Shown in pieces: positions 3,081 to 25,997 of a DNA stretch of 31,982 nt (position 1 is the first letter of the stretch; every line of letters starts with the position of its first letter). Both the position numbers and the translations under genes were made by a program. This DNA comes from a virus. The stretch covers positions 1 to 31,982 of IMG/VR virus record IMGVR_UViG_3300034073_002357; one strand, written 5' to 3'. Below the pieces are notes generated by a model that did no database searches, was not told where the DNA came from, and worked only from the letters and a program-made list of their open reading frames with translations.

Positions 3081-3543
3081 CCGTTCTGTCTTTATCATCG
3101 AGCAAGTCAGGCAAGCACTGGATCAGAATGCGCTATTCAATGTGACTAAAGTGCATCGGCCTAAGTTCGGGACTAACGTAAACTGTTATCCCTACATCGT
3201 GCAGCAGCGAACAAACTATACGCTAGAGGATGGAGCCGGAGACAGTATCGGTACTGTCACTATCGGTATTCTTTTCGACGCGAATGTGAGCAGCGATACG
3301 CAGGGAGCAGGACTCGGAACAGACAAGTATGGAGAGATCGTGCAGGCCTGTGAGGATGCTTTCGCGAATTGGGAAATGGATGTATTATCCGATAAGCCAT
3401 CTGATGAACATACCGGAGCATTATTCAAAACAATCATTACCGGTGTATCATTCATCGGATGGGATGGTCATTGGGACAACGGAGCGAACACTATCGCTAT
3501 AGGTTGCCAGATTGAAGTGAACTATATGCACATATCTCTATGA
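3070..3543 (+). CDS. Probable tail terminator / tail completion protein
   Basis: The 157-residue product fits the usual length and position of tail terminator proteins, which hexamerise at the end of the tail tube and allow joining to the head. It has an N-terminal helix (VFIIEQVRQALDQNALF) followed by alternating beta strands, including TVTIGILFDAN and a C-terminal strand ending IEVNYMHISL. This alpha plus beta pattern is typical of lambda gpU and gp17-like folds. It sits just after the gp10-like gene and, apart from an inserted glycosyltransferase, just before the major tail protein. The call is from context and fold pattern. Confidence 0.55.
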   Translation: MYANRSVFIIEQVRQALDQNALFNVTKVHRPKFGTNVNCYPYIVQQRTNYTLEDGAGDSIGTVTIGILFDANVSSDTQGAGLGTDKYGEIVQACEDAFANWEMDVLSDKPSDEHTGALFKTIITGVSFIGWDGHWDNGANTIAIGCQIEVNYMHISL

Positions 3544-4304
3544 GCGAGCCTGAAGAACCTACCATCGACAAACGCTACCCTGTTTCGTTCGTAGTCATTA
3601 CTTGTAATGAAGACTTGCAACATCTGGCAGCGATGGTCGAAACACTGCCAGAATATTGTGAAGTGTGCATACTTAGCAATATGCAGGGGACAGAAGAGAG
3701 CCTGAGTGAAGTTGAGACCTTACAGCAGGGCACACGAACTATCCATAATCGTAAATGGATTTATACCGGAGTTTTCCACTTCGGTCAGGCAAGAAATTAC
3801 GCTGACGAAATGGCGACCAATGATTGGAGATTCTGGATAGACTCTGACGATCGACTTGCGAGCTGCCATCACAAGACGATACTAAGAGTAGCGAAGCAGG
3901 CTCCACCGGGTATCGGTGGTGCTTTCGCTGGCGTGGCATCTTACGAGCCAGACTATAGCAACAAAACACATTTGGGTTTCGGCATAATCAGTAGCGATTA
4001 TCAGCTAAGGATGTACCGCGGTTCATGTGGTGCCAAGTGGTCTGGCAGGATCCACGAACAAATCTATCCGGATCTGAAGAGACTTGGTTGGGGATCCCTG
4101 CCAACAAACGTCATCGTTATTCATGAGGGTTATAACGCTTCACTTGAAAAGCGATTAGAGAAAATGGAACGCAATGTCGAACTCTTGTTGATCGAGGTTA
4201 ACGAGAATCAGGATGATGGCTTGCGATCTTTTTATGCTAATTCGCTGCGAGACTCGATGAACGCTATGACCGAAATGCAATCACAACTAAAACAAGGATT
4301 ATAA
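3540..4304 (+). CDS. Family 2 (GT-A) glycosyltransferase inserted in the tail operon
   Basis: The 254-residue protein has a GT-A beginning (PVSFVVITCNE, residues 14-24) and a metal-binding DXD-type motif at residues 101-104 within WIDSDDR. A second conserved-looking segment, WSGRIHEQIYP, lies further on and is typical of family 2 transferases of the tetratricopeptide/WaaE type. It should transfer a sugar from a nucleotide sugar. The start overlaps the tail terminator stop (ATGA), and the major tail protein follows after two bases, so it is expressed with structural genes. Acceptors could be a virion protein or a hydroxylated DNA base made by the oxygenase at 23003-23845. No membrane segment is seen, so action on host surface sugars is less likely. 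Confidence 0.8.
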   Translation: MSEPEEPTIDKRYPVSFVVITCNEDLQHLAAMVETLPEYCEVCILSNMQGTEESLSEVETLQQGTRTIHNRKWIYTGVFHFGQARNYADEMATNDWRFWIDSDDRLASCHHKTILRVAKQAPPGIGGAFAGVASYEPDYSNKTHLGFGIISSDYQLRMYRGSCGAKWSGRIHEQIYPDLKRLGWGSLPTNVIVIHEGYNASLEKRLEKMERNVELLLIEVNENQDDGLRSFYANSLRDSMNAMTEMQSQLKQGL

Positions 4305-16897: not shown

Positions 16898-17156
16898 GCC
16901 AACTCCATCCCCATGGCATTACATTGAAATGCCAGACGGTGGATACCTAGTGGTCGTAACCTACGATCAGCCGATTGCAAAAGTACACGCTAGGGAGCCG
17001 GATGCAGCTCTTATCGCAGCAGCTCCGATGATGCTCGATGCTTTGGAACTAATAGCTACTGCTAAGGATCGAGGCTTCACTCTCAATTACGCTGTGGCTT
17101 GTGCAGAGACTGCGTTAGAACGTGTAAAGAACGGATACTACAAGGAGAATCGATAA
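16890..17156 (+). CDS. Small conserved phage protein with AALIAAAPMML motif
   Basis: The 88-residue product has the pattern seen in a widespread phage family: a short WHYIEM...GGYLVVV beta start, then D-AALIAAAPMMLDALELI. An AAA-P-hydrophobic-hydrophobic-x-AL segment, usually written as N-A-x-LIAAAPELL-x-AL, is its hallmark. No biochemical role is established for it that I know of. It overlaps the gene before by eight bases and its stop shares bases with the Gp157-like start (TAATG), placing it in the replication operon. Confidence 0.65.
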   Translation: MNKPTPSPWHYIEMPDGGYLVVVTYDQPIAKVHAREPDAALIAAAPMMLDALELIATAKDRGFTLNYAVACAETALERVKNGYYKENR

Positions 17157-17680
17157 TGGTTTACGATATACCAGCACGACAGCACGCAAGTGCTAGTGCA
17201 GCACGGCTTGCAGAACTGGTCTCGCAAGTAAGCAGCACCGATGACCCGGAGGTCATAGCAGAATTTGAGATTGCTGTTCAGGAAGCAGGGGAATACTTCG
17301 AATCCACTTTAGAGGATTTGTTGATATACCGGTCGAATCTGCTTACATCCTGCGACACGATTCGTCGAGAGATCGAGCGTCTGAAAGGTTTGGTCGAAAT
17401 GAGAGAGAGCCGAGCAGAAGTATTGAAGGATGCAGTTATTCATTACATGATGGTCGCTGATAAGACTGCAGTAAACACCGATCTGTTCACTATCCGGCTA
17501 AAGAAGAATCCACCTAAAGTCGAAGTCTTGTCCGAGGCCACTATACCTACTGAGTACATGAAAGAAATTACCAAGGTAGAGATCAAGCCGGATAAGAAGT
17601 CGATAGCGGACGCTCTTAAGATGGGTATCGATGTACCCGGTTGTGCATTAATCCAAACAAGTCGTATAGAAATCATTTAG
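17156..17680 (+). CDS. Siphovirus Gp157-like protein
   Basis: The start is ATG 17156, overlapping the previous stop. The 174-residue protein has an N-terminal disordered part, a long helix at about residues 55-110 (LEDLLIYRSNLL...IREIERLKGLVE) and a C-terminal beta part (FTIRLKKNPPKVEVL). It then continues with IPTEYMKEITKVEIKPDKKSIADALKMG and ends GCALIQTSRIEII. The helix followed by an R-L-x-KNPP-K-V strand and a P-x-K-x-x-I-x-x-x-L-K-x-G segment is the signature of the Siphovirus Gp157 family. These genes neighbour annealing proteins, as here, and probably assist recombination or phage DNA protection. Confidence 0.8.
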   Translation: MVYDIPARQHASASAARLAELVSQVSSTDDPEVIAEFEIAVQEAGEYFESTLEDLLIYRSNLLTSCDTIRREIERLKGLVEMRESRAEVLKDAVIHYMMVADKTAVNTDLFTIRLKKNPPKVEVLSEATIPTEYMKEITKVEIKPDKKSIADALKMGIDVPGCALIQTSRIEII

Positions 17681-17689
17681 GAGTAAATC

Positions 17690-18460
17690 ATGAGCAACAT
17701 TATCCCAACCAATAACAGTGACGAAGCAGCAGTGACCACGGAGTTGGCAGGCCTCTTCAACAAACTTGTGCTACAGGCCGATCTCAGCAAGCTCTCTGAA
17801 ACAGAGCTTGTGCAGTACTACCACGCTGTATGTAAACGTGCTGGCCTCGATCCTATGACTAAACCTTTCGAGGTGCTGGTACTCAATGGCAGGAAAACAT
17901 TATACGCTACTAAAACAGCAGCAGCGCAATTGACTGCAATTCATAGCGTATCTGTAACTATTGTTGATAAAGGCCGGCTCGGTGAGGATACCTACTTTGC
18001 CCAAGCACGAGTAACGAAGCGTGACGGTACGACAGTCGAGGATATCGGTGTAGTATCAATCGCCAATGTACGTGGAGAGGGGCTGTCAAATGCGATTATG
18101 AAAGCAGTCACCAAAGCTAAGCGACGTGCTATCCTCTCTGCTTTCGGTATTGGGCTAAATGACGAATCTGAAATGGAGGATGTACCTAACGCGAACCTAC
18201 TCAAGAACTCGATTAACCCGGCGATCGCAGCAGAGCTTACGCAGGAACAAGCAGACGAGGTGGATTCTTTAACCGATATGCTGATACACGCTGAGGACGC
18301 TGCTGACCTGACTGCCTATATCCATCTGATCCGGGATTTGGACGAGGTAGTACGATTGAAGTTGAAACCGGTCGTACTACAGACGCAAGAGCGATTAAAC
18401 GTCGTGTGGCTTAACGGTAAATACACACCAAAGATTATCCCTAATAAGGAGGACGAATGA
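17690..18460 (+). CDS. Putative single-strand DNA annealing protein
   Basis: The start is preceded by AGGAG. The 256-residue protein has YYHAVCKRAGLDPMTKPFEV near residues 44-63, a beta-rich core (VSVTIVDKG...YFAQARVTKRDGT) and MKAVTKAKRRAILSAFGIG around 140-160, then an acidic C-terminal tail. A short C-x-x-x-GLDP-x-T-x-PF motif followed by a KA-x-TKAKRR helix recalls Rad52/RecT-type annealing proteins. Neighbours (Gp157, an SSB-like protein and a nuclease) support this. It would pair complementary strands during replication and repair of phage ends. The superfamily is a best guess, based on motif likeness rather than on a family I can name with certainty. Confidence 0.6.
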   Translation: MSNIIPTNNSDEAAVTTELAGLFNKLVLQADLSKLSETELVQYYHAVCKRAGLDPMTKPFEVLVLNGRKTLYATKTAAAQLTAIHSVSVTIVDKGRLGEDTYFAQARVTKRDGTTVEDIGVVSIANVRGEGLSNAIMKAVTKAKRRAILSAFGIGLNDESEMEDVPNANLLKNSINPAIAAELTQEQADEVDSLTDMLIHAEDAADLTAYIHLIRDLDEVVRLKLKPVVLQTQERLNVVWLNGKYTPKIIPNKEDE

Positions 18461-18708
18461 CAGCCACACGTGAAGAACTGATCATCATCATTGAAGAACT
18501 CCAAGAAGCATTGACGAATTGCCTAAGAGCGATATACGAGGCAGATCGATCTCTGGACGATGGGTACAGCTATTGTCGTTATAACAAAGGTGTCCAATTG
18601 TGTCTAAACACAGCTTACGAGAATGGCCGTCAAGTAGCTAACAAAGTGACATCGATCATGATCGCTGATAGAGCGTCGCAAGAGAAGCAGAAGGGATCAC
18701 CGGTATGA
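18457..18708 (+). CDS. Small helical protein of unknown function
   Basis: An 83-residue product with a coiled N-terminus (TREELIIIIEELQEALTNCL), two Cys residues in the middle, and a basic end. The start overlaps the preceding stop (ATGA) and the stop overlaps the next start (ATGA), so it is tightly coupled to both the annealing candidate and the DnaA-like gene. It may be a partner of one of them. No known motif. Confidence 0.55.
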   Translation: MTATREELIIIIEELQEALTNCLRAIYEADRSLDDGYSYCRYNKGVQLCLNTAYENGRQVANKVTSIMIADRASQEKQKGSPV

Positions 18709-19046
18709 TACCTAACAAGAGCAGAGCAGAGAAGCACGGAGTATTGGAAGCAGTAGCTAGGAAACTTTCAATTGACGTGCAGGATATCACTGATAAGAAC
18801 CGGGAAGCATGGAGGGTGATTATTCGATACGCTATCGCTAGAGCTTTGCGTGAAGACAATCATTGGCCGTGGCCTGAAGTAGGTTCGACTATTGGCAAAG
18901 AGCGTACTACGACGTATTATGCTGTGGATATAGCAGCACGGATGCGACAGTATGGCAGCGTCGAACAGAAAGCCATCATCGAGCGAGTGACCGAAGCAGT
19001 GAACGAATACCTCAACTCTTTATCAACTAACCATAGGAATGGATGA
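18705..19046 (+). CDS. DnaA domain IV-like DNA-binding protein
   Basis: The 113-residue product reads like the C-terminal DNA-binding domain of DnaA without the ATPase part. RVIIRYAIARALREDNHWPW (residues 42-61) matches the helix that begins ARQ-x-AMYL-x-R in DnaA. PEVGSTIGKERTTTYYAVDI (62-81) matches the signature helix-turn-helix (L-x-x-IG-x-x-FG-x-DHTTV-x-x-A). A Lys-rich N-terminus (HGVLEAVARKLSIDVQDIT) also resembles the start of domain IV. It may bind DnaA boxes, two of which lie at 15424 and 22216, and recruit or compete with host DnaA. It is a conserved strategy in some phages but the partner is unknown. Confidence 0.75.
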   Translation: MIPNKSRAEKHGVLEAVARKLSIDVQDITDKNREAWRVIIRYAIARALREDNHWPWPEVGSTIGKERTTTYYAVDIAARMRQYGSVEQKAIIERVTEAVNEYLNSLSTNHRNG

Positions 19047-19081
19047 GCTAACCCCAAATCGTATCAAGGTTGTTGTGTGAG

Positions 19082-19122
19082 GTGTAGGCAGGCATCAGCC
19101 GTAAGTCCTACACTAATTTTTA
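19082..19122 (+). terminator. Intrinsic terminator-like hairpin
   Basis: GTGTAGG (19082-19088) pairs with CCTACAC (19107-19113), with an inner GGC-ATCA-GCC hairpin, and the tract TAATTTTTA follows. This is the only hairpin in the window with a clear T run, so it may end transcription after the DnaA-like gene or set an attenuation point before the SSB gene. Confidence 0.55.
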
Positions 19123-19148
19123 CTTAAGTCAAACAAGGATTGAAGATT

Positions 19149-19505
19149 ATGCCAAGAGTACAAACATTCATCGTCGAGGGTACGCTCATCAAGAAGTTCG
19201 ATGTAGAGCAGATCACCGAGACTTTCAGTAAACGATCAATCGTAGTCCGCATCGAGCATGAAAAGTACCCACAAGAGGTTAAACTCGAATGTGTGGGAGC
19301 GAGTAAAGACTTAATCGAACCTTTGAATATAGGCACGACAGTACGCTGTACTTGTGAACTTACAGGCCGGAGCTATACACGTAAGACTGATGGAAGCACG
19401 GATTGGTTTACTTCCGTTCGCTGCTTCGATCTACAAGGAGTAGGAGCAAACACACTGCCAAGCAATAAGACTAATACCTCAGAGGTGAAGGATGTCCCGT
19501 TCTGA
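19149..19505 (+). CDS. SSB-like OB-fold protein (DUF3127-type)
   Basis: The start is ATG 19149; the in-frame TTG at 19140 lies in the leader. The 118-residue protein follows the DUF3127 pattern: VEGTLIKKFDVEQITETFSK, a S-x-VVRIEH-x-KYPQEVKLE strand pair, a long loop, then GTTVRCTCELTGRSYT and WFTSVRCFDLQ. It ends with an acidic, Phe-terminated tail (SEVKDVPF), typical of SSBs that recruit partners. DUF3127 proteins are largely restricted to Bacteroidota and their phages. It should coat single-stranded DNA during replication and recombination, matching its place next to the annealing candidate and the nuclease. Its gene follows the terminator-like hairpin. Confidence 0.75.
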   Translation: MPRVQTFIVEGTLIKKFDVEQITETFSKRSIVVRIEHEKYPQEVKLECVGASKDLIEPLNIGTTVRCTCELTGRSYTRKTDGSTDWFTSVRCFDLQGVGANTLPSNKTNTSEVKDVPF

Positions 19506-19779
19506 TGATCAGTTGATCGACTGGATTAAATCACTAAATACTGACGATGAGCTTAGGCCACCGGTACGCGATGATCGTCCAAGCAGACGAGCAGCTTCCA
19601 AGGTGATCGAGCTTACACGAGAAGTATCGAAGCAGAAGTACGCTGTAAAGAGGAAACAGATGGAGCGTGCATCGGCAAGTTTGGAAGCAGCTCGTATCGA
19701 CGTGGCCTCTGCAATGGCAAAGTACGGTATTGTCAATAGCATCACCGGGTACTATAACGTATATCAGGAGTTCGTGTAA
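19492..19779 (+). CDS. Small basic helical protein, replication operon
   Basis: A 95-residue product, coded from an ATG inside the last codons of the SSB gene. It has an acidic start, a basic central helix (KVIELTREVSKQKYAVKRKQMERA) and an Ala-rich second helix, with a YYNVYQEF end. The charge pattern suits a nucleic-acid-associated helical hairpin. It ends on the start of the nuclease gene (one-base overlap). Function is unknown. Confidence 0.55.
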   Translation: MSRSDDQLIDWIKSLNTDDELRPPVRDDRPSRRAASKVIELTREVSKQKYAVKRKQMERASASLEAARIDVASAMAKYGIVNSITGYYNVYQEFV

Positions 19780-20090
19780 TGCGTAGAGCTGCTAAGATCG
19801 ATGATAATCAAACTGAGATAGTCAAGAACCTTAGAAAGGCCGGGTACTCTGTTTGCATCCTCTCAGCAGTTGGCAAGGGAGTGCCTGACATACTAGTCGG
19901 TGCGAACGGTGTCAACATACTAATGGAGATCAAGGACGGTAATAAACCTTTATCTGCACGTAAGCTGACACCAGACGAAGCCAAATGGCATCAATCATGG
20001 AAAGGACAAGTCGCAGTCGTAAGCAGCCTCTATGAGGCTCTTACGGCTGTGTTCGTTCATAGCGTGAAGCAGGGGATGATTAATGAATAA
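19779..20090 (+). CDS. VRR-NUC domain nuclease
   Basis: The 103-residue product is a minimal PD-(D/E)xK nuclease: KGVPDILVG with Asp37, MEIKDG with Glu50 and Lys52, and the family-specific LTPDEAKWHQSW (residues 63-74) followed by a VAVVSS strand. Short stand-alone VRR-NUC proteins are common in phage replication modules and cut branched or junction DNA, so a role in resolving recombination intermediates before packaging is likely. It overlaps its neighbours by one and eight bases. Confidence 0.85.
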   Translation: MRRAAKIDDNQTEIVKNLRKAGYSVCILSAVGKGVPDILVGANGVNILMEIKDGNKPLSARKLTPDEAKWHQSWKGQVAVVSSLYEALTAVFVHSVKQGMINE

Positions 20091-20298
20091 TTGGCCAGAG
20101 CTTACTACGAAGCAGAGAGAGCGTCTGATCGAGCTATACGTATCCAGTTGTGGCAGCGAACAAAGGGTAGTTCGCGCAAATCTGGTTACGAAATGCAGAG
20201 AGCTATATGGCTTCTGGATTCGTGAAGAGCAACTTTCAGATATAATGCAGCAGGGAGAACAAAGGACAATGCAGAAAAAGATAGGAGACGGTCTATGA
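20083..20298 (+). CDS. Small protein ahead of the replication initiator
   Basis: A 71-residue product with a helical, charged composition (TTKQRERLIELYVSSCG) and no recognised motif. The second half (LVTKCRELYGFWIREEQLSDI) looks like a short helix-turn-helix, so DNA binding is possible. Its end overlaps the initiator start by four bases. It could modulate the initiator or load a helicase. Unrecognised. Confidence 0.5.
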   Translation: MNNWPELTTKQRERLIELYVSSCGSEQRVVRANLVTKCRELYGFWIREEQLSDIMQQGEQRTMQKKIGDGL

Positions 20299-21176
20299 GG
20301 TTCGCTGATGGATGGATCAAACTGTACAGAGCCGTAGAGGATCACTGGATAACAGATAACCCGGAGTATTTCCGAGCGTGGGTGCTTCTGCTGTTGAAAG
20401 CCAATTTCGGAAAGCGAAGCAGGATGTTCAACGGACGGCTAATCGATGTGAAGCCGGGACAACTGATCGGCTCTGTAGACTACTTTGCAAAGCTGATGAA
20501 GCTCAGTACGAGCAAAGCACGAACGTTATTGACTTTATTGGAAGAAGATCGTATGATCACGGTCGAGGCCACGAAGAGAGGGACAAAGTTAAGTATCAAT
20601 AACTACGAGACTTATCAGGATTCGCAGCAAACAGAACACATACAGATCGCAAACAGATCGCAAACCGGACACAAACCGGTCGCAAACAGATCGCAAACAG
20701 ATCGCAACACAATAAGAAAGGAAAGAAAGGAAGAGAATGTATATCTATTTAATACAGACAACGAGGCAGAAGTAGAGCCGGATGGCAAGCGAAGCAGGAA
20801 AGCAGTATTCGTCAAGCCGGAGCTGACAGAGGTTATGGCTTATGCCGACAGCAGGACGTGGAAAGCAGCAGAAGCACAAGCGTTCTACGACTATCAAGAG
20901 GCATCAGGATGGAAAGTAGGCAATAAGCCGATGAAGAATTGGCAAGCAGCTATGAGGACTTGGGAAAGCAAGCTACCACCGAGGCCGAAAGCAGTATGTG
21001 ATTATTTCTTATCGGTCATGAGTGGCATCGAGGGTGATATAGCTGCTTATGCTGAGTTCGAAAGATTCTTTGGACACTATGAAAAGCAGGGATGGCGAAC
21101 CGGATCAGGCCAGAGGGTGACCAATTTCGAGCCTCTGGTAGATCAGTGGATTGCAAAGAATAGGAGCAAGTCATGA
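20295..21176 (+). CDS. Winged-helix replication initiator containing the origin
   Basis: The N-terminal part of the 293-residue protein (residues 1-105) reads like phage replication initiators with a winged helix (W-I-K-L-YR...FRAWVLLLLKANFG, followed by VKPGQLIGSV and a KLMKLSTSKARTLLTLLEEDRMI recognition unit). A low-complexity linker at residues 113-143 is encoded by six 11-bp iterons. A C-terminal domain (WKVGNKPMKNWQAAMRTWESK) resembles the DnaD-like YvGNKxI-NW motif that binds DNA or helicase. Iterons inside the initiator gene copy the lambda O arrangement. It probably binds them, opens the purine/AT-rich stretch at 20709-20755 and loads the ATPase at 21384-22196. Confidence 0.75.
   Translation: MRFADGWIKLYRAVEDHWITDNPEYFRAWVLLLLKANFGKRSRMFNGRLIDVKPGQLIGSVDYFAKLMKLSTSKARTLLTLLEEDRMITVEATKRGTKLSINNYETYQDSQQTEHIQIANRSQTGHKPVANRSQTDRNTIRKERKEENVYLFNTDNEAEVEPDGKRSRKAVFVKPELTEVMAYADSRTWKAAEAQAFYDYQEASGWKVGNKPMKNWQAAMRTWESKLPPRPKAVCDYFLSVMSGIEGDIAAYAEFERFFGHYEKQGWRTGSGQRVTNFEPLVDQWIAKNRSKS
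20632..20755 (+). other. Putative lambda-like replication origin
   Basis: A block of six adjacent 11-bp iterons (20643-20708) with a degenerate seventh in front (20632-20642) is followed by a nearly pure purine tract (20711-20737) and an AT-rich run (TGTATATCTATTTAAT, 20739-20754). This order, inside the initiator gene, matches the lambda origin: iterons, then an unwinding element. Confidence 0.65.
20643..20708 (+). repeat. Six tandem 11-bp iterons
   Basis: The units are CAGATCGCAAA, CAGATCGCAAA, CCGGACACAAA, CCGGTCGCAAA, CAGATCGCAAA and CAGATCGCAAC, with no spacers. Since 11 is not a multiple of three, the encoded protein repeats with an 11-residue period (ANRSQTGHKPV then ANRSQTDRNTI), so the DNA spacing and not the protein sequence is being conserved. 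Confidence 0.85.
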
Positions 21177-21394
21177 AAATGAAGTTGTCCGACGCTTTCG
21201 ACTATATCGCAGCAGCGATGCAGCAGATGGGACACGATCCGAGTACCGTCAAAGAATTTCTCTGGCAGTTGTACCTACAACCCAAAGGATTCATGAAGCT
21301 AGAATCTTACCTATCTGTCGATCCGCAGCATTTCGAGCAGGCCTATTGTAGCTGGATGCAGGACAACCAAAGGGAGAACAAAAGTGCAAATTGA
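21173..21394 (+). CDS. Small helical protein between initiator and ATPase
   Basis: The 73-residue product has a MKMKLSDAFDYIAAAMQQMG start and an aromatic C-terminal half (FLWQLYLQPKGFMKLESYLSV). Its start overlaps the initiator stop and its end overlaps the ATPase start by eleven bases. Its position between initiator and helicase-like ATPase is where helicase loaders or inhibitors often lie. No motif supports a specific call. Confidence 0.55.
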   Translation: MKMKLSDAFDYIAAAMQQMGHDPSTVKEFLWQLYLQPKGFMKLESYLSVDPQHFEQAYCSWMQDNQRENKSAN

Positions 21395-22196
21395 CTTAGA
21401 CTCAATCAGGACGTGGGCAGAGCTTAAACACTATTACTCCGAAATCGAGTGGATTATACCTGAATGGTTACCAAAGGGATACGTCACGATGTTAGCTGCT
21501 GATCCCGGTGTGGGAAAGTCTCTGCTGGCTCTATCGCTCTGTAAGATAGTGCTTTCAGGTGGCAGGTTCTACAATGGATACTACATCCCTGAGCCGGCTA
21601 AGACTCCTATGAAGCGTATCCTTTGGGTGGAAGCAGAAGCCGGTGAACCTTTCCATATGCAGAGAGCGTCAAAGCTCGGAATAAATCCACTGCAGATTAT
21701 CGAGCCTCGTAGCTCTGCTTTGGAGCCATCGACACCGAGCCTAAACAGCAAAGAGGATCGAGACCTTATCAGCGCGATCCTACGGCATCCAGACGTATCG
21801 ATGGCAGTATTAGACTCTTTGTCTGCTGCAAGCTCCGGTATAGATGAAAATAGCAGCCAATCCGCCATTCATGTGAAATGGTTATCAGAGCTTGCAAGGG
21901 ATTGTAATAAGCCGATCCTAGTCGTTCACCATATGAACAAGAGTACTCTACGCAGCAGGGGATCAGCGATACCCACATTGGCTGATATTCGCGGTTCATC
22001 GGCTCTCTTACAGCACGCGCGTATTATCTGGACTCTAGACAACCCGAAGCCAGATGACCCGAGCATCATACGTCTGGCTTGCGCTAAGTCGAACCTTGGA
22101 AAGAGGCCGGAATCGATCCTACTTGAAAACAGCGACGGACGTATTGACAATTTCACTGCTACACTGCAGAGCGTCGGATCGAAGTATCTGCAATAA
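21384..22196 (+). CDS. RecA-fold ATPase, RepA/helicase-like
   Basis: The start is GTG 21384 with AGGGAGA about seven bases upstream. The 270-residue protein has Walker A ADPGVGKS (residues 39-46), Walker B ending in Asp144 (MAVLDSLS), an ILVVHHMNKS strand (178-187) and DIRGSSALLQHA (201-212). This order (Walker A, Walker B, HH motif and DIRGS) is that of the RepA/AAA_25 family of hexameric ATPases related to DnaB-type helicases. It should unwind or remodel DNA at the nearby origin. There is no DnaB N-terminal domain, so a loader or a short helicase are both possible. It is the last gene before the noncoding segment. Confidence 0.75.
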   Translation: MQIDLDSIRTWAELKHYYSEIEWIIPEWLPKGYVTMLAADPGVGKSLLALSLCKIVLSGGRFYNGYYIPEPAKTPMKRILWVEAEAGEPFHMQRASKLGINPLQIIEPRSSALEPSTPSLNSKEDRDLISAILRHPDVSMAVLDSLSAASSGIDENSSQSAIHVKWLSELARDCNKPILVVHHMNKSTLRSRGSAIPTLADIRGSSALLQHARIIWTLDNPKPDDPSIIRLACAKSNLGKRPESILLENSDGRIDNFTATLQSVGSKYLQ

Positions 22197-22356
22197 TACT
22201 ATTCAAGTCGAAAAGTTATTCACAATCTAGGGTATCACTGCACGTATATTGCGATGCAGTCCGTCTCCCTGCAGGCCGGTGGCTATACTCCTGACACCCA
22301 CACAGAGTTGCTCCGAGTCACCGGCCATTTATTTGTTGAACGACTATTACGACTAA
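22197..22356 (+). promoter_or_regulatory. Noncoding segment with DnaA box and inverted repeats
   Basis: This 160-base gap contains the DnaA box TTATTCACA (22216-22224), a bulged hairpin (ACTGCACG at 22237 with CGATGCAGT at 22252-22260), and an 8-bp perfect inverted repeat (GGCCGGTG at 22274 with CACCGGCC at 22319-22326) around a 37-base loop. AT-rich sequence (ATTTATTTGTTG) follows. It separates the early module from the modification and packaging genes, so a late promoter or a cos/pac site is likely here. No standard promoter is clear. Confidence 0.45.
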
Positions 22357-23037
22357 ATGCGTACCGAAACAGACAAAAGACAAGTTGAATACGTAGCGGT
22401 CTCGGCTCTGACTCCATATGCGCTTAACAGCCGGAAGCATAGCCCCAAGCAGGTGAAGCAGATCGCTGCAAGCATACGCGAGTTCGGATTCACCAACCCG
22501 GTTCTGATTGATGCTAATGACGTTATTATCGCTGGACACGGTCGTGTACTTGCAGCGGAGCATTTGCAGCTCGATCAGGTTCCGTGCATCCGATTGGAGA
22601 ACCTGACTGAAACACAGATCAAGGCCTACGTACTCGCAGATAATAAGCTGGCAGAAAATGCCACATGGGACGAGGAAATGTTACTGCTGGAAATCGAGGC
22701 TCTCAAAGCAGTAGACTTCGATATCGATATTATCGGCTTCGATGTGCCTCAGCTCGATGCAGTCACTAACAGCGATTCCCCACAGCCCTCTGTACTAGAG
22801 GCTCCGGAGCGATTGAAAAATCCTGATGAAGCATTCGACGATTACGAGAACAGCACCATCCGTCAAATCATCCTGATTCTGGACACTGAGGAATACGACT
22901 CCGTGATCCATTCGCTAGACTTGATCAAGGACAAGCACGGCTTCACGAATAACACCGAAGCAGCTCTTTACGCTATAAACGCTTTGATCAATAGTGGTGG
23001 ATATGAGAACAGTATATCTGAAAAAGAAGCCGGTTAA
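22357..23037 (+). CDS. ParB-like nuclease/CTPase-fold protein without methylase domain
   Basis: The N-terminal half (residues 10-105) is a ParB/sulfiredoxin-type domain: LTPYALNSRKHSPKQVKQIA, then GFTNPVLID, the signature AGHGR at residues 59-63, and VLADNKLAENATWDEEML. In many phages this domain is fused to a DNA methylase, but here the frame stops with no MTase domain and continues as a C-terminal extension (STIRQIILILDTEEYDSVIH). It overlaps the oxygenase gene by 35 bases, so the two are made together. It may guide or regulate DNA modification, nick DNA, or act in packaging. Confidence 0.8.
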   Translation: MRTETDKRQVEYVAVSALTPYALNSRKHSPKQVKQIAASIREFGFTNPVLIDANDVIIAGHGRVLAAEHLQLDQVPCIRLENLTETQIKAYVLADNKLAENATWDEEMLLLEIEALKAVDFDIDIIGFDVPQLDAVTNSDSPQPSVLEAPERLKNPDEAFDDYENSTIRQIILILDTEEYDSVIHSLDLIKDKHGFTNNTEAALYAINALINSGGYENSISEKEAG

Positions 23038-23845
23038 CCTGCTAGATTATAAGCAGAGACGAGCCAAGCCGGAGGACTGCAGTATCAGCATCAACGAGGA
23101 ATGCAGGATCATCGATGAGGACAGTGGCAAAGCAATTGCACTTTATTGTAAGCCACAAGGAGAGGACGCGGTATTCGACGATCTGTACGAGGCCTGCAGT
23201 ACTACCAAGTTCACTACGCATCCTCGCACAAATGGGATGGTTAGTACAAGTAAAATCTTTGGCTACAATCCTCGTAACGCTATCCGTAAAGACTTCTGCT
23301 CCGTAGCACATTATGCCAGAGAGCAACCACAGCAGCACAACGCTGTAGTAATGGCCGGAGTCCTAGCAGCCAAGTACTACGCTCTGCATAACCCGGAGCT
23401 GTACGCTTCTCACCTGCAGACCACCACGGAAAAGATCAATGAAGATTATCGACTATTAGACCTACCGTTCACGTCAGGTATCGTGAATGAAAACAATCCT
23501 TTGGCATACCATTTCGATTCTGGCAATTTCAAGAACGTATGGTCTGCCATGATTGTTCTAAAGAGGGATATAGCCGGAGGCTACCTCGCCATGCCCGAGT
23601 ATGACGCTCTCGTCGAGGTAGCAGACAAATCAATATTCTATTTCGATGGTCAGAGCATCCTGCACGGTGTGACGCCTATCTCCAAGCTGAACGAACAAGC
23701 TCGACGATACTCGATTGTTTACTATTCACTGCAGGCTATGTGGAACTGCCAACCTTTACGTGAAGAGATCGCAAGAGCTAGAATGCGTAGGGAGCAAGTC
23801 GAGCATAACCGGCTAACCAAGAAAAGAACAAATGGCAGCCAATAA
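23003..23845 (+). CDS. TET/JBP-type 2-oxoglutarate/Fe(II) DNA dioxygenase
   Basis: The start is ATG 23003; GTG codons at 22994 and 22997 are upstream alternatives. With this start (280 residues) the metal and cosubstrate residues appear as H170-x-D172 (YHFDSGN), H221 (HGVTPI) and R235 (ARRYSIVYYS). Spacings D to H of 49 and H to R of 14 are close to JBP1 (H189, D191, H239, R255), and the GGYLAMPEY strand matches the family. It should hydroxylate thymine or 5-methylcytosine in DNA. No cytosine C5 methylase is present, so thymine or a host-made 5mC is the likely substrate. ParB-like and FkbM-like genes flank it with overlaps. Confidence 0.75.
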   Translation: MRTVYLKKKPVNLLDYKQRRAKPEDCSISINEECRIIDEDSGKAIALYCKPQGEDAVFDDLYEACSTTKFTTHPRTNGMVSTSKIFGYNPRNAIRKDFCSVAHYAREQPQQHNAVVMAGVLAAKYYALHNPELYASHLQTTTEKINEDYRLLDLPFTSGIVNENNPLAYHFDSGNFKNVWSAMIVLKRDIAGGYLAMPEYDALVEVADKSIFYFDGQSILHGVTPISKLNEQARRYSIVYYSLQAMWNCQPLREEIARARMRREQVEHNRLTKKRTNGSQ

Positions 23846-24536
23846 GACGAAAATCATCAAGGCAGGTACCGGATATTTCTCAGTCCGTGAAAACACTTCT
23901 GATCTGAAAGCGATCAAAGAGGTGGTGGTCAACGAGGCCTATAAGCGTCGTGGCTTCGTGCCAGAGCCTGATGAGGTCTGGATCGATATAGGTGCGAACT
24001 GTGGAGCATTCAGCGTATGGGCAGCGAAGAAAGGATGCAGGGTAATCGCATTCGAGCCTGATCCGGAGAACGCTGCAATCGCCCAATCCAATATTGATCT
24101 AAACAATGTTTCAAAGTCAGTCAAGCTGTACACCTTAGGACTGACTGCAGAGGATGAACCGAAACGACTATATTTCTACCGGAACACTGCGAACGGTAAC
24201 GTGTGGCGCAATAGTCTTTACAAAGAGTGGCGTGGAGGGGAAAGAATCGCAGTGGACACCGTACCAGTAGAGGCTTACTGGAATCCCGATTATTGTATTA
24301 AGCTGGATGCAGAGGGAGTCGAAATGCCCATCCTCGAAAAGTACGGACACATCAAGGTAAAAAAACTCGTATTCGAATGGTCGTTTGACATCGATCCATC
24401 GATCAAGCGATTCAACGACGTAATCGATAAACTGAAAAACATTTACGACAATGTGCAGTACGGTGGATTCCAAGCCGGCTACGAAACGTGGCAACCATCG
24501 TGGTTCCCTGCTGCACGTATGGTCTGGTGCTACTAA
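23832..24536 (+). CDS. FkbM-type SAM-dependent methyltransferase
   Basis: The 234-residue protein has the class I methylase signature: DIGANCGAFS at residues 52-61 (SAM binding motif I), E75 in FEPDP (motif II), and the FkbM hallmark KLDAEGVEMPIL at 157-168. FkbM enzymes O-methylate small molecules or sugars. Here the gene starts 14 bases inside the oxygenase gene and precedes the small terminase by one base, which suggests it methylates the product of the oxygenase (for example a hydroxymethyl base or an added sugar) before packaging. That reaction is inferred. It does not carry DNA cytosine or adenine methylase motifs. Confidence 0.8.
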   Translation: MAANKTKIIKAGTGYFSVRENTSDLKAIKEVVVNEAYKRRGFVPEPDEVWIDIGANCGAFSVWAAKKGCRVIAFEPDPENAAIAQSNIDLNNVSKSVKLYTLGLTAEDEPKRLYFYRNTANGNVWRNSLYKEWRGGERIAVDTVPVEAYWNPDYCIKLDAEGVEMPILEKYGHIKVKKLVFEWSFDIDPSIKRFNDVIDKLKNIYDNVQYGGFQAGYETWQPSWFPAARMVWCY

Positions 24537-24865
24537 TGGCAAATAAGAAAGCTGACGTTGATCCGGAGCAAGTCCAGAAGCTGGCAGCGATCGGATGTAC
24601 TCATCAGGAAATATCCGATATAGTCGGATGCTCGCACGATACACTGACTCGGCGATTCAGGAAAGAAATCGAGTTCGGACGAGCGAACGCCAAAGCATCT
24701 CTACGTAGGAAGCAGTGGGAGACAGCATTGTCAGGTAACGTCACAATGCTAATCTGGCTAGGCAAACAAGTCCTAGGTCAAAGCGATAAACAAGAAATCA
24801 CGCAAGGTGGTGAAATCATTATCGACTTTACTTCCAAGCCAGATGAAAACAAAAGCAGTAATTAA
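24536..24865 (+). CDS. terS: Terminase small subunit-like HTH protein
   Basis: The start is ATG 24536, overlapping the preceding stop (TAATG). The 109-residue product has an N-terminal helix-turn-helix (VQKLAAIGCTHQEISDIVGC followed by SHDTLTRRF), then a helical oligomerisation region with LIWLGKQVLGQSDK, typical of small terminases. It recognises the packaging site and regulates the large subunit, whose gene overlaps it by 23 bases. Confidence 0.85.
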   Translation: MANKKADVDPEQVQKLAAIGCTHQEISDIVGCSHDTLTRRFRKEIEFGRANAKASLRRKQWETALSGNVTMLIWLGKQVLGQSDKQEITQGGEIIIDFTSKPDENKSSN

Positions 24866-25997
24866 GATAGATCCGACGGAACCTCAGAGACGCTTTCTCC
24901 AAGACCCTGAGAAAGTAGTCGCGTTCGTTGGTGGTATCGGCTCTGGCAAAACATTTGCAGGTGTGATCAAAATCTTGATGCAGCCACCCAATACAATCGG
25001 AGCTGTGGTCGCTCCTACGTACCCGATGCTCCGTGACGCTACCATTAGGAGCTTTAAGGATATATGCGCACCATTAATCACAAAGTGGCGTGACAGTCCT
25101 AACGTATCAGCAGTACTTCGTGACGGAAAGGAAATACTGTTTCGCTCCGGCGATAATCCTGATTCGCTACGAGGCCCGAACTTGAATTGGTTTTGGATGG
25201 ACGAAGCAGCCTATTGCGAGGAGGCAGTATTCGATGTAATGTTAGGACGTATCCGTAGAGAGCCTACAGCAGCATGGGCGACCACGTCACCTAATGGAAA
25301 GAATTGGGTGTACGATTCTTTCAAGCCGGGTAATCCTTATGGCTATTCGCTGCACACATCCAGCACGAGGGATAACATACACCTAGCCAAAGACTACGTA
25401 CAGACTCTGATCAACAGGTACAGCACTAACCACGCTCTGCAGGAAATCGAGGGACAATTCATCGATTTCGAGGGAGCCAGAGTAAAGCGCGATTGGCTCC
25501 GATGGGTAGACCGTGTACCCTCTGATCTGTATATCACTATGGGAGTCGATCTGGCTATTAGTACTAAAACCTCTGCAGACTACACAGCGTGTGTCGTAAC
25601 CGGTAGGGACGCCAATGGCATGATATATGTCTTAGACGTCCAGAGGATACAGCAGGGATTCCACGGTATCATCAATTTCGTTTCGGCTATGTCGCAGCAG
25701 TGGCAGCCGAGCGTGATCGGAGTCGAGTCAGTGCAGTTTCAACAGGCCGTGGTTGAAGAGCTGTTGATGAGAGGCTTACCGGTGCAAGCGATGAAGCCTA
25801 CCAAAGACAAAGTATCAAGGTTCCTGCCAATAGAGGGTAAGATCGAACACAATCAAATAACCTTAAAGCAAGGTATCAATCCAGACTTCGTAGACGAGCT
25901 ACTGACATTCCCAGAGGGAGCGCACGACGATATGGTGGACGCTCTGGTATTTGCAGTAGATTCGTTCTACAATACTTTCCAAGTGGTGACTATATGA
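24843..25997 (+). CDS. terL: Terminase large subunit
   Basis: The start ATG 24843 (in frame with a longer open stretch) gives 384 residues. ATPase motifs are Walker A GGIGSGKT (30-37), Walker B WFWMDEAA (116-123) and the coupling motif TTSPNGKNW (148-156). The nuclease domain has acidic residues D236 (MGVDLAIS), E295 (GVESVQ) and D362/D363/D366 (GAHDDMVDA). It powers DNA translocation into the prohead and cuts the concatemer. It is short for a TerL but all motifs are present. The end overlaps the portal start by four bases. Confidence 0.95.
   Translation: MKTKAVIKIDPTEPQRRFLQDPEKVVAFVGGIGSGKTFAGVIKILMQPPNTIGAVVAPTYPMLRDATIRSFKDICAPLITKWRDSPNVSAVLRDGKEILFRSGDNPDSLRGPNLNWFWMDEAAYCEEAVFDVMLGRIRREPTAAWATTSPNGKNWVYDSFKPGNPYGYSLHTSSTRDNIHLAKDYVQTLINRYSTNHALQEIEGQFIDFEGARVKRDWLRWVDRVPSDLYITMGVDLAISTKTSADYTACVVTGRDANGMIYVLDVQRIQQGFHGIINFVSAMSQQWQPSVIGVESVQFQQAVVEELLMRGLPVQAMKPTKDKVSRFLPIEGKIEHNQITLKQGINPDFVDELLTFPEGAHDDMVDALVFAVDSFYNTFQVVTI

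Follow-up and report, generated by a model that had tools for sequence, protein, structure and literature searches.

A candidate replication origin built on 11-bp iterons inside the G38P-type initiator gene of an uncultured phage

Origins described within initiator genes

Several phages and plasmids are known to keep origin sequences inside the gene of the initiator. As described in PMC6316719, phage SPP1 gp38 binds the direct repeats of oriL, located within gene 38, with nanomolar affinity in a reconstituted system. According to the same account, oriL includes an AT-rich unwinding element next to the repeats, and gp38 also binds oriR, a proposed fork-stalling site (PMC6316719). Lambda ori is described as having four 19-bp iterons, all of them imperfect inverted repeats, which sit with an AT-rich region halfway along the initiator gene (PMC7466680). 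In RepA_N plasmid initiators (pSK41, pTZ2162), the winged-helix N-terminal domain binds boxes in its own gene; the ori-encoded central linker of pSK41 Rep can be deleted, leaving a protein still active in trans, and the naturally chimeric pPR9 combines pSK41 Rep with a phage-like PF13730 domain (as presented in PMC5703833). The organizers of TP901-1 and Tuc2009 are likewise reported to bind repeats within their own genes (PMC8965321). Deletion of 80alpha ORF20, a G38P homolog, was not complemented in trans, and therefore an origin within the gene has been suggested (PMC5499656).

Here, we analyzed a stretch of 31,982 bases of phage DNA (hereafter the window). Very probably, positions 20627–20756 represent a phage replication origin of the SPP1 oriL kind, where the initiator would bind iterons, an AT-rich stretch would melt and the helicase would be recruited for theta replication. 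The features of the region are listed in Table 1. The locus is similar to SPP1 in that the initiator has an N-terminal winged helix homologous to that of G38P and its gene includes direct repeats and a likely AT-rich unwinding element. Moreover, we found that SPP1 gene 38 likewise displays an 11-bp period. Unlike in SPP1, the unit sequence and the C-terminal part of the protein are different. SPP1 also has a second origin, oriR, whereas the window has no second cluster. Furthermore, SPP1 encodes the loader gp39 and the DnaB-type gp40, whereas the window codes for a 73-residue ORF and a shorter RecA-fold ATPase. The likeness to TP901-1, Tuc2009 and 80alpha, in which the origin is shown or suggested to reside in the organizer gene, is based on published descriptions. 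Since the arrangement is known from SPP1 and similar phages, the window is a new example of a known layout. Beyond the known type, the analysis contributes an 11-bp pitch that is conserved in a wide family, together with evidence from codon choice for conservation of the DNA.

The resemblance to lambda ori, where iterons and an AT-rich region likewise lie mid-gene, concerns the layout only, since the window has seven direct repeats without spacers. The lambda O family of Pfam (Phage_rep_O) was not found for the initiator (E ≤ 0.1). Considering also that the lambda iterons, as described, are of another kind (PMC7466680), we rejected membership in the lambda O family. The original prediction of a lambda-like origin is therefore correct for the layout but not for kinship: by sequence, the closest studied protein is SPP1 G38P.

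Table 1. Features of the candidate origin and of related loci (window positions unless a locus is named)
Feature	Position	Strand	Basis or remark
Replication initiator gene, 293 aa, G38P / phage DnaD-like replisome-organizer type	20295..21176	+	PHROG, tblastn
Winged-helix DNA-binding domain, residues 5-110	20307..20624	+	AlphaFold2 model
Putative recognition helix, residues 72-84	about 20508-20546	+	within winged-helix domain
Iteron array, 7 spacer-free 11-bp units, consensus GCAAACAGATC	20627..20703	+	partial eighth to 20708
Linker predicted disordered, codons 120-175	20652..20819	+	pLDDT <50
Purine-only tract, 24 nt	20714..20737	+	longest + strand purine run of window
AT-rich, easily melted stretch, likely DNA unwinding element	20734..20756	.	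lowest-stability 20-bp stretch
C-terminal helical part, residues 174-293	20814..21173	+	pLDDT about 44-81 per block, moderately confident
ORF of 73 aa between initiator and helicase	21173..21394	+	no reliable Pfam or PHROG family
RecA-fold / DnaB-C-like ATPase, 270 aa, likely replicative helicase or loader	21384..22196	+	Pfam
Initiators related in C-terminal part only, with 12- or 23-bp linker repeats	L028 669-1478; L029 2114-2770; L030 1994-2713		

Repeat array and adjoining sequence

The initiator gene had been predicted to contain six adjacent 11-bp units. The spacer-free 11-bp repeats are indeed present, but we counted seven full units instead of six. In order, these are GCAAACAGAAC, ACATACAGATC, GCAAACAGATC, GCAAACCGGAC, ACAAACCGGTC, GCAAACAGATC and GCAAACAGATC, followed by a partial GCAAC. 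Tandem Repeats Finder reported 20627–20707 as a repeat of period 11 with 7.4 copies. When 66-bp stretches of the window were scanned for periods 7–30, periodicity was highest at 20631, with period 11 (55/66 matches). No stretch elsewhere in the window was equally periodic, and the maximum reached in 200 Markov shuffles of the window was 38 matches. Within the array, the fraction of self-matches was 0.72, 0.64 and 0.68 for lags 11, 22 and 33, respectively. Because 11 is not divisible by three, successive units are read in codon phases 2, 1 and 0. Three units make up 33 bp, or 11 codons, and therefore the predicted 11-residue period of the encoded peptide is genuine. As also predicted, it falls into a linker modeled as disordered, which spans most of the iterons plus the AT-rich block.

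We also searched the whole window for unit sequences, allowing up to two mismatches. There were 14 matches (10.75 expected), four of them in the array, and matches outside the array occurred at the chance rate only. A second iteron cluster was not found in the window, and a second origin within it was rejected accordingly.

A purine tract and an AT-rich run had been noticed after the repeats inside the initiator gene, and both were confirmed, at 20714–20737 and 20738–20756. The second-longest purine run on the + strand of the window is 13 nt. The AT-rich run, TGTATATCTATTTAATACA, is 84% A+T. According to nearest-neighbour energies, the least stable 20 bp of all 31982 bases start at 20734; if segments of 30, 50 or 100 bp are considered, other places are slightly or clearly less stable than this stretch. 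Judging by sequence, an AT-rich unwinding element likely adjoins the repeats, as in the SPP1-type origin. GC skew, proposed as a check on the origin, did not single out the array: it has a local maximum of 0.19 at 20001–21000 and no sign change at the array.

Initiator, neighbouring genes and host

The initiator matched PHROG families phrog_2514 (E 5.9e-31) and phrog_186 (E 1.6e-17), annotated as DnaD-like helicase loaders, and more weakly phrog_345 ('O-like', E 1.3e-5). A tblastn search with the initiator returned 155 phage records, including SPP1 gene 38 (X67865; E 6e-9, 33.9% over residues 4–108). The sole Pfam match of the initiator was weak and sub-threshold (HTH_36, PF13730, E 0.044).

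In the AlphaFold2 model, the winged helix has mean pLDDT values of 85–97 per block from residue 11 to 110. A Foldseek search of the PDB with the initiator model returned nothing at E ≤ 0.001. Using VIA-align, we compared model residues 1–121 with the N-terminal domains of RepA_N plasmid initiators (entry titles: 'initiator', 'DNA binding protein', 'Rep-DNA complex'). The Z scores were 7.3–8.4 (4pql, 8.4 with 97 aligned residues and rmsd 3.8; 4pt7, 8.3; 5kbj, 7.7; 4pta, 7.3), amid many other winged helices. Because other winged helices score equally over shorter stretches, we consider this likeness in fold a resemblance only. RepA_N (PF06970) was not matched by the initiator in Pfam (E ≤ 0.1), and RepA_N initiators, unlike the one studied here, are plasmid-borne. 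With the initiator sequence alone as query, the solved structures matched were botulinum neurotoxin chains (E 0.71–0.77), weak matches taken as chance.

The C-terminal part resembles the initiators of Porphyromonas and Psychrobacter phages, and phrog_28809 matches residues 175–224. This part might be the contact to the helicase machinery, which is a guess, since Pfam gives no match to the DnaD C-domain: DnaB_2 (DnaD C-terminal) was not found in the window protein. Matches to solved DnaD structures arose from a profile (A1) that mixes in Firmicutes members.

As in SPP1-type loci, a gene for a likely helicase or loader is located beside the initiator. Its product, the ATPase of 21384–22196, matched PF13481 (E 2.3e-24), PF03796 (DnaB_C, E 7e-9) and a DnaB chain (E 1.7e-5). 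Further downstream (22357–23037) is the gene for a ParB-N-like protein (phrog_620, 'ParB-like', E 5.3e-56). The best distant DNA match of 17000–24900, Verrucomicrobia phage P8625, is at this gene. A few genes upstream of the initiator, 18705–19046 codes for a 113-residue protein that is similar to the C-terminal helix-turn-helix of DnaA only (PF08299, E 2.6e-6, under the Pfam cut-off). The product of 17690–18460 is Rad52/22-like (PF04098, E 1.2e-5; no PHROG match) and likely a single-strand annealing protein. Amid the structural genes, 3540–4304 encodes a glycosyltransferase-like protein (SunS family, E 1.2e-7, under the cut-off).

The assignment to a Bacteroidota-type phage is unsupported. 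The best named relatives of the initiator come mainly from Vibrio, Shewanella, Staphylococcus and other Firmicutes phages, and only the C-terminal part is reminiscent of a Porphyromonas phage initiator. Among named phages, capsid and terminase gave distant matches, spread over different hosts. Scans of genome contigs with the initiator and the terminase revealed no relative and no prophage relative. Shine-Dalgarno-like words are enriched, preceding 16 of the 38 chosen starts (chance level 17%), and the promoter pattern of Bacteroidota was nowhere matched in full. Promoter and ribosome-site words do not decide on a host.

Conservation of the 11-bp pitch and alternative readings

For a comparison with related genes, 156 loci were fetched, of which three were the window itself and were excluded. 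Altogether, 145 ORFs (including the gene of the window) matched the winged-helix profile. Reducing redundancy left 45 of them, and one with a truncated start (L132) was dropped, resulting in a set of 44. For each linker, periodicity was evaluated by shuffling the codons of that linker. Lag 11 was significant (p ≤ 0.01) in 36 of the 44 homologs, lag 22 in 31, lag 9 in 22 and lag 10 in none. The arrays are located at the same place as in the window, directly 3' of the winged helix. The idea of a fixed pitch came from the first set (the window and L004–L030), in which 14 of 19 were significant. Among the homologs fetched afterwards, 21 of 24 were significant at lag 11 (L082, a near copy of L014, was excluded); some of the later searches were queried with Asn-rich linker peptides, which may bias this sample toward the AT-rich block, and one query peptide lay within the repeat itself. 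The eight homologs without a significant 11-bp array at p ≤ 0.01 include some that carry 12- or 23-bp repeats, such as L011 (12 bp) and L008 (23 bp).

Unit sequences vary between phages while the pitch stays. What the units weakly have in common is a C with A-rich positions after it (score 5.27; null maximum 5.09 in 40 permutations). The order of array and AT-rich block recurs as well: A+T content just after the array is 0.76–0.78, compared with a gene mean of 0.63 (30-bp segments; the 34 of 44 arrays passing the extension threshold). In many homologs (e.g. L145, L146 and L147) the AT-rich block displays trinucleotide or 9-bp repetition such as AATAATGAT. We also examined nine loci fetched because they have the C-terminal part in common with the initiator of the window. 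Their N-termini are different, with L030 giving a weak profile match, and their repeats are 12 bp (L028, L029 and L044), 23 bp (L030), 21 bp (L041) or 11 bp (L062) long; no clear repeat was found in L027, L035 and L045.

The initiator might instead bind the iterons as a control site (for autoregulation, copy control or as a fork barrier resembling SPP1 oriR), with replication starting elsewhere. We regard this as unlikely. There is a precedent in the binding of SPP1 gp38 to oriR, where it is proposed to stall forks (PMC6316719). However, the window lacks a second iteron cluster, its least stable 20-bp stretch directly adjoins the array, and the same order of array and AT-rich block is repeated among the homologs.

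Even less probable is that the repeat serves the protein as a repetitive disordered linker, or is the result of drift by replication slippage, the DNA itself having no role. The array does encode an 11-residue repeat in a linker predicted to be disordered. Also, one of 70 SA7-type staphylococcal alleles (L128, gene 1495–2361) has lost exactly 33 bp of the array, or three units. However, a protein repeat needs lag 33 only, whereas lag 11 equals it in strength when the 120-bp segments 3' of the winged helix are pooled (0.472, 0.446 and 0.451 for lags 11, 22 and 33; 0.31–0.40 at other lags from 5 to 35; a flat 0.26–0.30 in the remaining gene sequence). Furthermore, the pitch is constant even though the units differ in sequence, and a significant lag-11 signal was present in only one of 65 control ORF segments of the homolog loci.

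Codon choice also argues against a repeat kept for the protein. In 34 genes, Asn is encoded by AAC in 47 of 65 array codons, whereas AAT accounts for 165 of 209 Asn codons in the AT-rich block (the next 51 bp) and for 288 of 492 elsewhere. Asp codon choice likewise reverses between the array and the AT-rich block. P-values for these pooled codon counts are optimistic, because codons inside one array are not independent. Gene by gene, 25 of 29 comparable genes have a lower share of AAT in the array than in the remaining sequence, and 25 of 30 have a higher share in the AT-rich block. A uniform push to A+T does not account for this, since Lys and Glu codons in the AT-rich block are not shifted to A-ending ones. 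Therefore, the DNA rather than the disordered protein linker seems to be the target of selection. Stop-codon constraint was rejected as the cause of iteron composition, as approximately 56–65% of random 11-mers have no stop codon in any frame.

That the array is a centromere-like site for the ParB-like protein is highly improbable despite the phrog_620 match, since the gene is about 1.6 kb away, several PHROG matches of its product are named nuclease or methyltransferase, and arrays accompany the initiator gene in most homologs (36/44, scored for the initiator alone).

Staphylococcus phages SAP33 and SA7 have 98–100% identical flanks and differ at about 2001–2500 of L013 (compared with L014), a segment that comprises the winged helix plus the array and AT-rich block. 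This looks like the exchange of one cassette, by analogy with plasmid pPR9 (PMC5703833). The two winged helices are 41% identical, yet their iterons are fairly alike (0.76; background 0.51), and given this likeness, the pair does not demonstrate that each domain goes strictly with its own iteron. Two initiators whose winged helices are 92% identical but whose C-termini are unrelated have the iteron in common (0.81), and several pairs with 60–72% identical winged helices have iteron scores near background. Across the pairs compared, the outcome for iteron–winged helix pairing is mixed.

Overall, the core of the original prediction, an origin inside the initiator gene, is very likely correct. 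From the sequence and from the described phages, we infer initiator binding, melting, helicase loading and firing at 20627–20756. In the proposed mechanism, the winged helix would bind the seven iterons inside its own gene, one subunit per helical turn and all on one DNA face. The row of bound subunits would strain the adjoining AT-rich stretch until it melts. The C-terminal part may then recruit the phage RecA-fold ATPase, and theta replication would begin. The 11-bp pitch would put iterons into all three codon phases, which the polar disordered linker could tolerate.

A broader proposition is that the spacer-free 11-bp pitch is a family-wide law: the sequence drifts while the spacing remains fixed at one helical turn. 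A filament would then form along a single face, with a winged helix on each turn, and would run up to a repetitive AT-rich block. We consider the chances for and against this proposition to be even. A single 11-bp unit gained or lost would shift the reading frame, so copy number in the coding frame would change only by threes (33 bp). We found no published 11-bp family rule in the literature that we covered, and we do not claim the rule as unpublished.

For this uncultured phage, the analysis provides a precise, testable candidate origin. The initiator gene is also an example in which selection appears to act on the central part as DNA, and the peptide sequence goes along with it. The succession of winged helix, 11-bp array and AT-rich block within one gene suggests a rule for locating origins in many phage genomes. 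If the pitch law is true, the origins of very many uncultured phages would be readable from sequence alone.
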